A DNA stretch of 64,000 bases, from assembly GCF_001941975.2 (NCBI RefSeq), contig NZ_CP146991.1, positions 2,032,524 through 2,096,523 on the forward strand, given 5' to 3'. The notes under the pieces were generated by a model. It had not been told where the DNA came from. It saw nothing but the letters and a program-made list of their open reading frames with translations, and made no database searches. The position numbers and the translations under genes are program-made. The stretch's first letter is position 1; each line of letters begins with the position of its first letter. This document shows positions 46,331 through 51,521 of the stretch, one piece after another. Source of the DNA: Sporomusa sphaeroides DSM 2875. GTDB taxonomy: Bacteria; Bacillota; Negativicutes; Sporomusales; Sporomusaceae.

Positions 46331-46359
46331 TTGACATTACACCCAAGGAGTGGTATTTT
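46331..46359 (+). promoter_or_regulatory. Sigma-A promoter of the heat-shock operon
   Basis: TTGACA (46331-46336), 17 bp, TATTTT (46354-46359). The CIRCE operator begins 11 bp downstream. Confidence 0.7.
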
Positions 46360-46370
46360 TTTAGTAGGTG

Positions 46371-46397
46371 TTAGCACTCGCGTGATATGAGTGCTAA
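46371..46397 (+). promoter_or_regulatory. CIRCE operator (HrcA binding site)
   Basis: TTAGCACTC (46371-46379), 9 bp, GAGTGCTAA (46389-46397): an exact match to the CIRCE consensus. HrcA bound here should repress hrcA, the chaperonin, grpE, dnaK and dnaJ until heat stress. Confidence 0.97.
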
Positions 46398-46416: not shown

Positions 46417-47448
46417 ATGTTAGATGAAAGGAAGCGCCAAATCCTGCACGCCATTATTGATGACTACATATCCACCGCAGAACCGGTTGGCTCGCGGACG
46501 ATTGCCCGTAAATATAATTTGGGGGTCAGTCCGGCCACAATCCGTAATGAAATGGCCGATTTGGAGCTGTTAGGTTATATTGAACAACCGCATACCTCGG
46601 CAGGCAGAATACCCTCAGTCAAAGGTTACCGTTTTTATGTTGACTGTTTGTTGGCACCACCCCAGATCTCTGACAAAGATATTCAGCTCATCGACAACTG
46701 GTATCAGACAAAAGCCCGGCGGATAGACGAAGTATTTCAGGAGACAGTTAAGGTCCTTTCCCGCGTGACCAGCAATGTTTCTATGGTCCTGGCACCACAA
46801 GTGTCACAATGTACATTCAAATACCTTCAGTTCTTACCGCTGGATGAGTGCCGGTCTATTGTTGTTATTATCACCGATACCGGGTTGTTAGAAAATAAAA
46901 TAATTGAAATTCCTGAAGGCCTGAACCATGAAGACTTGACCCGTGTGGCAACTGCCATCAATTCCCGGCTGGGAGGCTTGGCGATCGAACTGATTACTAC
47001 ACCGGTGCTAAAAGATATTCAAAACGATATTTTGCCTGACCCGCAGTTGTATGAAAGGGCCGTTACCCTGCTTAAGCATGTACTTACTGTTGATAAGAAG
47101 GAAAAAGTGTATCTTGGCGGCACGACGCAGATGTTAAATCAGCCGGAATTCAGGGATGTTGATAAGGTTAAGGGTCTCTTAACCATGCTGGAGGAAGACC
47201 GTTTGCTATGTGATATTCTCCATATGGCCAACAGTGATGGTGTGGTTGTTACGATTGGTCAGGAAAATAAATATACAGGCATTCATGACTGCAGTGTTGT
47301 TCAAGCCACGTACCGCATAGACGGGCAAGTGGTAGGAACGGTTGCCGTGCTTGGTCCCACCCGGATGGAATATGGTAAAACTATGTCTGTACTTAAATTT
47401 ATGCAACGCCATTTAGGTGAAATTTTGAAAAAGTATAAAATGCTATAG
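46417..47448 (+). CDS. hrcA: Heat-inducible transcription repressor HrcA
   Basis: The 343-residue repressor that binds CIRCE. An N-terminal winged helix (LDERKRQILHAIIDDYI, VSPATIRNEMADLE) is followed by the dimerisation and effector region with HTSAGRIPS and the C-terminal GPTRMEYGKTM. ATG 46417 is chosen, 8 nt after AAGGAGGTGG; an ATG 30 nt upstream lies at the edge of CIRCE without an RBS. It heads the operon and is autoregulated. Confidence 0.96.
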   Translation: MLDERKRQILHAIIDDYISTAEPVGSRTIARKYNLGVSPATIRNEMADLELLGYIEQPHTSAGRIPSVKGYRFYVDCLLAPPQISDKDIQLIDNWYQTKARRIDEVFQETVKVLSRVTSNVSMVLAPQVSQCTFKYLQFLPLDECRSIVVIITDTGLLENKIIEIPEGLNHEDLTRVATAINSRLGGLAIELITTPVLKDIQNDILPDPQLYERAVTLLKHVLTVDKKEKVYLGGTTQMLNQPEFRDVDKVKGLLTMLEEDRLLCDILHMANSDGVVVTIGQENKYTGIHDCSVVQATYRIDGQVVGTVAVLGPTRMEYGKTMSVLKFMQRHLGEILKKYKML

Positions 47449-47462
47449 GTGGGAGGAAATCC

Positions 47463-49046
47463 ATGAATTTAAAGCAAGCCGGCAGTGGCGCTGATGTGGA
47501 TGAACGATTAGCCGCTCTGTTAACTAACGCCAATGCTGTACGGGCAATTACTGCAGCCGTTGAAGGTACAATCGGCCCTAAAGGGCTTGATACTATGCTG
47601 GTTGACCGTTTTGGTGAAGTTATTATTACCAATGATGGTGTCACAATTTTAGATAAGATGGATGTTAATCATCCGGCGGCAAAAATGCTTATTAATACCG
47701 CTAAGGCCCAACAGGCCGAAGTAGGAGACGGCACTACTACCGCTACCATCATGGCTGGCAGTCTGGTATCTGAAGGGGTAAACCAGGTTATGCGCGGTGT
47801 ACCTGTCGCCAGAGTCATTGAAGGCATCAGGTATGGTGTCGCCAAAGTCCTGGAAAACGTAAAGGACCGTACCCGTACGATTACTGAAGTAAATGATCCC
47901 ATACTCCGGAGTATTGCCATGATCGCCGGACGGGAACATGAAGATATTGCCGACCTGGTGGTAGCAGCCGCTAAACTGATAGGTGTGGAAAAGCTAAACG
48001 AATCTAACTTTAAGCTGGCCGAAATTATTACGGCGGAAGCGGGCGCTGACAATGAAGTCTTTCTGGGTGTTATTGTTGATCAGGAACGTATGACCCAGGA
48101 AATGCCGGAAGAAATATTGAATGCAAAATTACTGCTTATTGATGATGCACTTGAACCGGAAGAGATTGAAGACGAGGCGTTAAGTACAGAAGCCGGTTTT
48201 AAAAGGTATATCGATCTGCAGGATGAATTTAAATCCAATGTGCAAAAGATTGTTGGTCTTGGTGTGAACATTGTTATGGTTGACCGGGGGGTACACAGCG
48301 CTGCCGAGGAAATTCTCACAGATGCCAATATTATGGTTATTCAGAGGGTATCTTCCAAAGATCTGCGCCGGGTAGCCGATCACACCGGAGCGCGGATGAT
48401 AAAACGCACCGGCTTGAAAAAAGAACAGACCGATATTGAAAAATATTTGGGTGCTGCACAAAAGGTATACCAGGATGAAAAGCTGGAACAAGTGCGGGTT
48501 ATTGGCGGCAGCGGCAAGCCAATGGCCACGATTTTGGTAGGTGCAGCCACCGAAGAGGTAGTAGGGGAACGCGAACGTATTGCTAAAGATGCCGCTTCCA
48601 GTGTGCAGGCCGCAGTAAAGGGCGGTTACGTACCGGGCGGTGGTTCCATTGAAATTGCAATGGCACGGGAAGTCAGCAAATATCGTGAAAACCTTAAAGG
48701 TATGGCTGCCTATGGCCTGGATTGCGTAGCTAATGCTCTGAAGCAGCCTTTGTCGCAAATCGTGGAAAATGCAGGCTTTAATCCTCTGGAAAAAGTAGAG
48801 GATGTCGTTGCTGCGCAAACGGCTCAAAACCGCGATTCTTTAGGTGTGGATTGTGATAGCGGTGAAGTGGTTGATATGCTGGAGCGGGGTGTTATTGATC
48901 CGGTTCCGGTAAAACTTCATGCCATAAAAGCTGCAGGAGAAGTGGCTGTGGCTATTTTGCGGATTGATACCATTATAAAGAAAAAAGAAGAGGGGGCTAA
49001 TGCCCAGAAGGCAGGCGGTGCTGACAGCGGTATGCCTGACTTCTAA
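47463..49046 (+). CDS. Group III (archaeal-type, thermosome-like) chaperonin
   Basis: A 527-residue chaperonin of the TCP-1/thermosome type, not GroEL. It has GPKGLDTMLVD (about 38), ITNDGVTILDKMDVNHPAAKM in part (about 58), VGDGTTTAT (about 86) and the archaeal-type helical lid region, then VPGGGSIEIA and a C-terminal GMPDF tail. Bacterial members, first described in Carboxydothermus, lie in dnaK operons as this one does between hrcA and grpE. They fold proteins in a two-ring complex with a built-in lid and no GroES. Its RBS GTGGGAGG and 14-nt gap to hrcA support operon membership under CIRCE control. Confidence 0.93.
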   Translation: MNLKQAGSGADVDERLAALLTNANAVRAITAAVEGTIGPKGLDTMLVDRFGEVIITNDGVTILDKMDVNHPAAKMLINTAKAQQAEVGDGTTTATIMAGSLVSEGVNQVMRGVPVARVIEGIRYGVAKVLENVKDRTRTITEVNDPILRSIAMIAGREHEDIADLVVAAAKLIGVEKLNESNFKLAEIITAEAGADNEVFLGVIVDQERMTQEMPEEILNAKLLLIDDALEPEEIEDEALSTEAGFKRYIDLQDEFKSNVQKIVGLGVNIVMVDRGVHSAAEEILTDANIMVIQRVSSKDLRRVADHTGARMIKRTGLKKEQTDIEKYLGAAQKVYQDEKLEQVRVIGGSGKPMATILVGAATEEVVGERERIAKDAASSVQAAVKGGYVPGGGSIEIAMAREVSKYRENLKGMAAYGLDCVANALKQPLSQIVENAGFNPLEKVEDVVAAQTAQNRDSLGVDCDSGEVVDMLERGVIDPVPVKLHAIKAAGEVAVAILRIDTIIKKKEEGANAQKAGGADSGMPDF

Positions 49047-49065: not shown

Positions 49066-49632
49066 GTGGCAGAAAAAAAACAAGAGCGATTACAAACTGA
49101 ATCAGTTCAAGAAAATCTAAATACTGAAACTGCAGCAGAAGAAAATTATGAAGTTTGTTTTCAGGCAGAAGATGTAAGTCAGTTTATGGCGGCGCTGGAT
49201 GAAAAAGGCCGCCTGCTTGATGAGATGACAGACCGGTATAAGCGCTTACAAGCCGATTTTGATAATTTCCGGCGCCGGACTCGTCAGGAGAAGGAAGAAC
49301 TATCTATTATAGTTGCAGAGCGCATTATTTGTGAACTCTTGCCTATAGTGGATAATTTTGAGCGGGCAACAGCCAGTACGCCAAATGACGTAACTGCTTT
49401 GGCCACAGGCGTGGAAATGATTTTCCGCCAGCTAAATAGTACCCTGACACAGTTAGGGGTAGAGCCCATTATTGCGGTAGGAAATATGTTTGACCCAGCG
49501 CAGCATGAAGCCGTACTGCGCCTTGAGGATAGCAGTCAGCCTGATGGTATGATTGTGGAAGAACTGCAAAAAGGTTACAAAGTTAACGGGCGGGTAATTC
49601 GTCCAAGTATGGTAAAAGTAGTAGGAAATTAA
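49066..49632 (+). CDS. grpE: Nucleotide exchange factor GrpE
   Basis: The 188-residue exchange factor for DnaK. A charged N-terminal coiled coil (about 1-85) leads to the conserved RLQADFDNFRRRTRQEKEE in part, then the beta-domain with FDPAQHEAV and the C-terminal GYKVNGRVIRPSMVKV. GTG 49066 is preferred because an in-frame GTG at 49057 overlaps the GGAGGT RBS. Confidence 0.95.
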   Translation: MAEKKQERLQTESVQENLNTETAAEENYEVCFQAEDVSQFMAALDEKGRLLDEMTDRYKRLQADFDNFRRRTRQEKEELSIIVAERIICELLPIVDNFERATASTPNDVTALATGVEMIFRQLNSTLTQLGVEPIIAVGNMFDPAQHEAVLRLEDSSQPDGMIVEELQKGYKVNGRVIRPSMVKVVGN

Positions 49633-49667: not shown

Positions 49668-51521
49668 ATGGCAAAAGTAATTGGTATTGACCTTGGTACT
49701 ACTAACTCCTGCGTGTCTGTAATGGAAGGCGGCGAGCCGGTAGTTATTCCTAATCCGGAAGGCAGTCGCATCACCCCTTCTGTAGTAGGTTTCTCAAAAA
49801 ACGGTGAGCGCTTAATTGGACAAATCGCTAAACGTCAAGCTGTCTCCAATCCTGACGGCACGGTTAGCTCGATTAAACGTCATATGGGGACTACGCATAA
49901 AGTTACTATTGAGGGTAAGGACTATACTCCTCAGGAAATTTCAGCAATGATTCTGCAAAAACTCAAATCCGATGCGGAAGCTTATCTGGGTGAAAAAGTA
50001 ACTCAGGCGGTAATTACCGTTCCTGCGTACTTCTCTGACAGCCAGCGTCAGGCTACCAAAGATGCCGGTGCTATTGCAGGTCTTGAAGTGCTTCGGATCA
50101 TCAATGAACCTACGGCTGCAGCTTTAGCTTATGGTATGGATAAAGGCAATGACCACACTATCCTGGTATTTGACCTGGGTGGTGGCACGTTTGATGTGTC
50201 GATCCTGGAACTGGGCGACGGCGTGTTCGAAGTTAAAGCCACCAGTGGTAATAACAAGCTGGGCGGCGATGACTTTGACGAAAGGGTTATGAATTGGCTG
50301 GTAGCCGAATTCAAAAAAGAACAGGGAATTGATCTGACCAATGACCGGATGGCCATGCAACGGTTGAAAGAAGCTGCGGAAAAAGCCAAAATTGAGCTGT
50401 CAGGTGTACTTACCACTAATATTAACCTGCCGTTCATTACTGCCGATCAAACTGGTCCGAAACATCTTGACATCAATCTGACCAGGGCAAAATTTGATGA
50501 ATTAACGGCCGATCTGGTTGAAGCTACCATGGGGCCGACCCGTCAGGCATTAAGCGATGCCGGGATGTCTGCCAAGGATATTGATAAAGTTATTCTTGTC
50601 GGCGGTTCCACCCGGATTCCGGCCGTACAGGAAGCCATTAAAAAATCTTTGGGCAAAGAGCCGCATAAAGGTGTCAACCCGGACGAGTGCGTAGCCGTCG
50701 GTGCCGCCATCCAGGCCGGTGTGCTTGTTGGTGAAGTAAAAGACGTACTGCTGCTGGACGTTACGCCGCTGTCCCTGGGCATCGAAACTTTGGGCGGGGT
50801 ATTTACCAAAATTATTGACCGCAATACTACCATCCCGACTTCCAAGAGTCAGACCTTCTCAACTGCTGCTGACAATCAGCCGTCTGTTGATATCCATGTA
50901 CTGCAAGGTGAACGCGAAATGGCGTCATATAACAAGACGCTGGGACGCTTTGAACTTTCCGGCATTCCTCCTGCCCCCCGTGGCGTACCGCGCATTGAGG
51001 TTACTTTTGATATCGATGCCAACGGGATTGTCCATGTATCGGCAAAAGATTTAGGTACAGGCAAAGAACAAAAGATTACCATTACTTCTTCCGGTGGACT
51101 GGATAAAGAGGAAGTAGAAAGAATGGTTAAAGAAGCCGAGTCGCATGCTGCTGAAGACAAACAGCGCAAAGAAGAAGTCGAAGTTCGTAATAATGCCGAC
51201 TCGCTGGTATATAATGCGGAAAAAACCATTAAAGAATTTGGCGAAAAAGCCGATAAAACTCTTGTTGATCAAGTGCAGCAAGCGGCTGATAAGCTGAAAG
51301 AAACATTGAAAGGCAGCGATATTGAGGCCATCAAGGCTGATTCTGAAGCTCTTACTAAGCCGCTTTACGAACTGTCGACTGCTATGTATCAAGCCTCTGC
51401 TCAGGCCGAAGGAGCGGCAGAAGGGGCTCAGCCAGGCGGAGCACAAGGTGCGCAAGGTGCACCTGATGACGATAAAGTAGTTGATGCCGAATATAAAGTG
51501 GTGGACGAAGACAAGAAATAA
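49668..51521 (+). CDS. dnaK: Chaperone protein DnaK (Hsp70)
   Basis: The ATP-driven Hsp70. At 617 residues it has [11 protein letters not shown] at the N-terminus, the phosphate loop [12 protein letters not shown] (about 168), [11 protein letters not shown] and the substrate-binding domain from about 370. The lid ends in a Gly/Ala/Gln-rich tail and the acidic EEVD-like end VVDEDKK. TAAGGAGG stands 9 nt before the ATG. Confidence 0.98.

Follow-up and report, generated by a model that had tools for sequence, protein, structure and literature searches.

A group III chaperonin gene in the CIRCE-headed dnaK operon of Sporomusa sphaeroides, a genome with two groES-groEL operons

The window analysed here is a 64,000-nt stretch of the Sporomusa sphaeroides DSM 2875 genome, the term being used for the whole of that stretch. 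At 47463-49046 on its + strand lies an open reading frame with an ATG start that encodes a group III chaperonin of 527 aa. Open reading frames and profile matches gave the cluster order lepA-hemW-CIRCE-hrcA-CPN-grpE-dnaK-dnaJ (CPN, the chaperonin gene), all on the + strand. The end of hrcA at 47448 leaves a gap of 14 nt to the chaperonin start, and by gene order the chaperonin is encoded in the dnaK operon, a feature of group III membership. An earlier sequence-only reading had placed the gene between hrcA and grpE, 14 nt past hrcA and behind one perfect CIRCE, and had pointed to the motifs GPKGLDTML, NDGVTIL and GDGTTT; the coordinates agree with that placement and all three motifs are present in the translation. 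The observation of an archaeal-type chaperonin in a CIRCE-headed dnaK operon was thus confirmed. The longest hrcA reading frame begins at 46387, and the start at 46417 was preferred because of an upstream AAGGAGG. As called, the grpE frame begins at GTG 49057; GTG 49066 is better spaced from GGAGG. The features of the cluster are:

46331..46359, + strand: promoter-like site TTGACA-17-TATTTT, with TG ahead of the second hexamer; 10/12 consensus positions
46371..46397, no strand assigned: CIRCE operator (predicted HrcA binding site), perfect inverted repeat; 0 mismatches
46417..47448, + strand: hrcA, heat-inducible repressor; TIGR00331, 349 bits; start set behind AAGGAGG
47463..49046, + strand: group III (archaeal-like, built-in lid) chaperonin subunit, 527 aa; profiles, tree, residues and model
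49066..49632, + strand: grpE; profile match, GTG start at 49066
49668..51521, + strand: dnaK; TIGR02350, 966 bits
51541..52677, + strand: dnaJ; TIGR02349, 472 bits

The CIRCE at 46371-46397 is the only one in the window and has 0 mismatches; the chance level at ≤3 mismatches was 0.02 per window, with a match in 2 of 100 shuffles. It lies 11 nt behind the promoter-like site, between this predicted promoter, a consensus match, and the first gene hrcA, the arrangement of an HrcA/CIRCE regulon. Promoter-like sites were not enriched in the region (11 vs 10.6 expected in shuffles), and this one was counted solely for its location just before CIRCE. From CIRCE to the chaperonin start, the promoter scan of the region listed no + strand promoter-like site. 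Beyond that start, it listed three within grpE and one within dnaK, which speaks against the reading of one jointly controlled operon. The sole + strand terminator-like site from CIRCE to the chaperonin is a five-pair stem within hrcA, and terminator-like sites were not commoner than chance (6 vs 8.1 in shuffles). On the strength of the single CIRCE, the promoter-like site ahead of it and the short gaps, the chaperonin and DnaK are predicted to be controlled together by HrcA, and the earlier suggestion of HrcA control fits this prediction. A passage of PMC5904260, citing Techtmann and Robb 2010, states that HrcA controls both chaperonin types.

The Pfam family Cpn60_TCP1 matched the chaperonin with 386 bits. 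NCBIfam thermosome models scored 317-324 bits (thermosome alpha, 323.6) vs at most 184.4 for GroEL models, a lead of 139 bits for the best thermosome model over the best GroEL one. None of these thermosome and GroEL models attained its curated cut-off, which is consistent with the protein being neither. Among solved proteins, the best matches were 9rwq (680 bits) and Ch-CPN of Carboxydothermus hydrogenoformans (5x9u, 477 bits); the ACII reconstruction 9rwp reached 306 bits and natural thermosomes at most 271. In the PDB, 9rwq is entitled "Ancestral Group II Chaperonin"; this label was set aside because a passage of PMC12696368 identifies 9RWQ as ACIII, the reconstructed group III ancestor.

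An unrooted tree was built from 38 rows, comprising 31 group III proteins (the query, Ch-CPN 5x9u and 29 relatives, one of them, L111, being the same protein as 5x9u), five thermosomes and the two GroELs of the same genome. All 31 group III rows fell on one side of one branch, found in 90% of 200 bootstrap trees, and the five thermosomes and both GroELs fell outside it. The support of this branch (88/81) is moderate, and the tree program flagged a joining of long branches, those of groups I and II. The phylogeny proposed by the sequence-only reading thereby sets the chaperonin with Ch-CPN and apart from thermosomes and GroEL.

Alignment with Ch-CPN matched Asp58, Asp376, Arg157, Leu240, Phe246, Tyr249, Phe256, Val113, Met414, Tyr417 and Leu442. 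The catalytic Asp58 and Asp376 correspond to Asp56 and Asp373 of Ch-CPN, and Asp occupies the Asp56 column in 30/31 group III rows. Arg157 corresponds to Ch-CPN Arg155, a group III feature: Arg was present in this column in 31/31 group III rows (Ch-CPN being counted twice) and in none of the five thermosomes. The group II counterpart is Lys according to a passage of PMC5635000; in our alignment the thermosomes show Gly, Leu or Asn there, an effect of gap placement. The lid tip residues Leu240, Phe246, Tyr249 and Phe256 are kept and the lid is four residues shorter than in thermosomes, again as in group III. The same source describes, in part of its text, the lid residues of Ch-CPN as strictly conserved; over the 31 rows these sites vary (Leu237, Leu in 27/31; Phe243, Phe in 29/31; Tyr246, Tyr in 23/31; Phe253, Phe in 26/31). 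The group III ball-and-socket joint, formed in Ch-CPN by Leu439 with residues 109, 111, 411 and 414, is represented by Leu442 with Arg111, Val113, Met414 and Tyr417. Differences from Ch-CPN were Lys109 to Arg111 and Phe461 to Cys464.

The nucleotide-sensing loop has six residues fewer than in all five thermosomes, as in Ch-CPN and as expected of group III. The two GroELs of the genome also lack these residues in the same alignment, contrary to the portion of PMC5635000 according to which group I possesses the loop; the missing loop was therefore taken to discriminate against group II only. A GroES partner and the absence of a built-in lid mark group I. Here, the lid segment is present where both GroELs show a gap, and both GroES genes adjoin the GroELs. 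An AlphaFold2 model of the single subunit (pLDDT 87.8, pTM 0.80) had 5x9v and 5x9u as its best folds (TM (query) 0.88-0.89), and group II and CCT chains reached at most 0.83 among the best 50 matches. Sequence, place in the tree, diagnostic residues and modelled fold all mark the protein as a group III chaperonin, and the group III type proposed from the letters was upheld.

Sporomusa species are mesophiles. The closest known system, Ch-CPN (5x9u, 5x9v), shares the fold, the short built-in lid, the missing loop and the catalytic and joint residues with the Sporomusa chaperonin at 45% identity. It also has the same operon place: locus L111, whose product is separated from Ch-CPN by a branch of zero length in the tree, reads CIRCE-hrcA-CPN-grpE-dnaK-dnaJ. 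C. hydrogenoformans is a thermophile, as noted in a passage of PMC5635000. Archaeal thermosomes and CCT (group II) share the subunit fold with its built-in lid segment and, by homology alone, the eight-membered rings, but the five aligned thermosomes have six residues more in the nucleotide-sensing region and four more in the lid, and group II has Lys (PMC5635000, in part) in place of Arg157. GroEL/GroES (group I) belongs to the same Cpn60_TCP1 family and its two copies in this genome also stand under perfect CIRCEs; the Sporomusa chaperonin differs by the lid segment, by having no adjacent GroES gene and by an identity of 29% to both GroELs.

Three Cpn60 genes are present in the genome, namely that of the group III chaperonin and those of the two GroELs, each of the latter with its own GroES and a perfect CIRCE ahead. 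The search for groEL and groES suggested by the sequence-only reading thus yielded two groES-groEL operons. That reading had also proposed a cell with a lidded, GroES-independent folding chamber; the lid segment in the subunit is consistent with such a chamber, but the cell as a whole is not GroES-independent, having two CIRCE-controlled groES-groEL operons. A fourth perfect CIRCE (G000:C1:2354722-2354748; L008:1501-1527) lies just upstream of htpG (HSP90, 318.6 bits). Its assignment to a TerC-like gene was rejected, this gene being on the other strand and the downstream gene being htpG. Beyond these four, the genome contained no CIRCE match at ≤3 mismatches; the pattern read backwards, used as a control, gave 1 match. 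A second full-length dnaK (L093; G000:C1:1251731-1253491, - strand) is followed by a dnaJ-like gene, and no CIRCE was found in that locus. From the distribution of the four perfect CIRCEs we infer an HrcA regulon that takes in the group III chaperonin, both GroELs, HtpG and the main DnaK set. With two groES-groEL operons and htpG behind perfect CIRCEs, the group III chaperonin adds to the GroEL/GroES sets and does not replace them.

The distribution of the gene was surveyed at E ≤ 1e-100 to the S. sphaeroides chaperonin, and the counts cover copies that close only. Within the order, the chaperonin was present in 27/28 genomes, S. sphaeroides included, at 74-100% identity; named Sporomusa species have chaperonins 90-92% identical to the S. 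sphaeroides copy. The sole miss (G324) may be an assembly gap, as this genome is 87% complete and hrcA is likewise absent. In the sample of the phylum, 102 of 299 genomes, again with S. sphaeroides, encode the chaperonin. The sequence-only reading had spoken of a few Firmicutes with a group III chaperonin in the dnaK operon; the arrangement is real, but at 102/299 its carriers are not few. The sample included nine genomes that belong to the same class but not to the order, and none of them has the chaperonin. All nine keep hrcA, and grpE is the next sought gene after it (L099-L107), leaving an empty site; CIRCE is perfect in seven, and no CIRCE was found at ≤3 mismatches within the loci of the other two (L106, L107).

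Synteny was conserved among the 102 loci, with hrcA upstream in 100 and grpE downstream in 100, and a median hrcA-to-chaperonin gap of 30 nt (100 loci). CIRCE was perfect in 96 of the 97 loci with sequence before hrcA and had one mismatch in the remaining one. The order hrcA-CPN-grpE was found with a perfect CIRCE in 94 loci, with one mismatch in 1 and with the DNA ending in hrcA in 3; two loci read CPN-grpE without hrcA and two hrcA-CPN-dnaJ with a perfect CIRCE. Of the two without visible hrcA, L182 has sequence ending 49 bases upstream of the chaperonin. The other (L018 / L183, genome G161) shows no hrcA and stops in all frames in the 572 bases upstream to the contig end, with grpE-dnaK following the chaperonin, and is a possible exception to the hrcA-upstream rule. 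All 80 genomes examined for GroES, of the 101 that carry the group III gene besides S. sphaeroides, have it. Some copies of the chaperonin gene were irregular. Internal stops occur in G267, G289, G278 and G088, and matches are partial in G260 and G113, through assembly error or decay. In G015, a single-contig genome, the gene is broken over two reading frames (L115:4345-5875; error or decay), and in G171 about 1 kb with a long open frame separates the first 41 chaperonin residues from the remainder (L181:4227-5288; insertion or assembly chimera).

Two genomes of separate families (G281, f119; G233, f109) have grpE and dnaK on another contig, adjoining an HspR-like gene; neither grpE nor dnaK was found near the chaperonin within the surrounding 8.8 and 11 kb. 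The NCBIfam HspR scores of the HspR-like genes are 101.4 bits in G281 (obtained with a changed start) and 80.2 bits in G233, and neither reaches the cut-off of 105. The relocated grpE-dnaK site of G281 also has a dnaJ-like gene. In both genomes (L026, L034, L091, L092, L184, L185), the chaperonin retains hrcA and CIRCE upstream and dnaJ downstream. No sites resembling the HAIR consensus were found at ≤3 mismatches near the relocated or second dnaK (L091-L093). The rows of G281 and G233 lie near the base of group III and the tree is unrooted, so the location of dnaK outside the operon may be either ancient or derived. One departure from dnaK-operon placement is noted in a passage of PMC5635000; dnaK-less loci that keep hrcA, CIRCE and dnaJ in two families are mildly new.

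Descent was assessed with pairwise distances over 63 loci, out of 97 candidates (25 named records and 72 other genomes, the same genome possibly occurring in both sets), with four genes at 85% coverage. Chaperonin distances correlated with those of LepA (r 0.57), DnaK (0.67) and HrcA (0.71), the largest value in 999 permutations being 0.28. Against LepA, the flanking genes gave 0.71 (DnaK) and 0.76 (HrcA), so these two neighbours follow the common history more tightly than the chaperonin does. Descent of the gene appears mostly vertical, along with the operon and within part of the phylum, and single transfers are possible. Comparison with seven copies of 90-92% identity gave dN/dS of 0.027-0.039, indicating purifying selection; these values are rough since dS exceeds 1.4.

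These data bear on other origins of the gene. If a thermosome gene had recently moved from an archaeon into this bacterial operon, profile scores closer to thermosomes than to GroEL would be explained, but such a transfer is contradicted by the spread of the gene in the order, by the 29-33% identity of the four haloarchaeal plasmid thermosomes among the matches listed, and by distances that follow those of the flanking lepA, hrcA and dnaK; we consider it very improbable. An old transfer at the origin of group III is possible, and is favoured in a passage of PMC12696368. The gene could also have been a duplicated GroEL that diverged and was freed from GroES, in keeping with the common Cpn60_TCP1 family and the 29% identity to both GroELs. 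The lid segment filling the GroEL gap, the 139-bit advantage of the thermosome model and the separation from the GroELs on the tree contradict this origin, whose probability is close to nil.

A third alternative concerns the partner of the chaperonin. In Bacillus subtilis, GroE serves as a gauge for HrcA, and the fixed partner of the group III chaperonin could likewise be HrcA and not DnaK, with the chamber folding or reactivating HrcA and closing the heat-shock loop. This would agree with G281 and G233, where the chaperonin stays with hrcA, CIRCE and dnaJ and grpE-dnaK sits elsewhere beside an HspR-like gene, and with chaperonin distances that, once LepA is removed, correlate slightly more with HrcA (0.52) than with DnaK (0.46). 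However, loci with hrcA before the chaperonin are no more common than loci with grpE after it (100/102 each), L018 shows neither hrcA nor a long open frame before its contig end, and the nine class genomes without the chaperonin keep hrcA. GroES, so presumably GroE, accompanies group III in 80/80 tested genomes, and the position of the chaperonin may reflect mere shared descent. This role is unlikely, and a limited literature search found nothing joining HrcA titration with thermosomes.

Our preferred reading is that the operon CIRCE-hrcA-CPN-grpE-dnaK-dnaJ very probably supplies a group III chaperonin, as a lidded double ring made with the DnaK set under HrcA, beside the two GroEL/GroES machines. 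By homology to Ch-CPN, sixteen identical subunits would assemble into a stacked pair of eight-membered rings; when ATP binds, each ring would be shut by the helical lid of the subunit itself, without GroES, and hydrolysis would reopen it, following the mechanism taken from Ch-CPN structures in parts of PMC5635000. HrcA at CIRCE would repress the operon, and heat or misfolded protein would free it, so that the chamber is produced with DnaK, DnaJ and GrpE. The two GroEL/GroES machines would operate alongside under the same repressor. DnaK, DnaJ and GrpE may hand clients to the group III chamber, a guess also made in passages of PMC5220055 and PMC5635000; G281 and G233, with grpE-dnaK outside the operon, speak against it.

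The chaperonin adds one more member to a known kind, found at the usual place and ordinary for the group, the dnaK-operon position of group III chaperonins being already in print (PMC5635000 and PMC5220055, in part). A limited search found no literature on Sporomusa together with thermosome, so an earlier listing of the genus is possible. What is added is that Sporomusa and its order are clear cases of archaeal-style and GroEL-style chambers under one apparent repressor. Passages of PMC5220055 and PMC5635000 leave open the choice between client hand-over from DnaK and shared HrcA control, and for that choice the genomes with dnaK outside the operon are a natural experiment.
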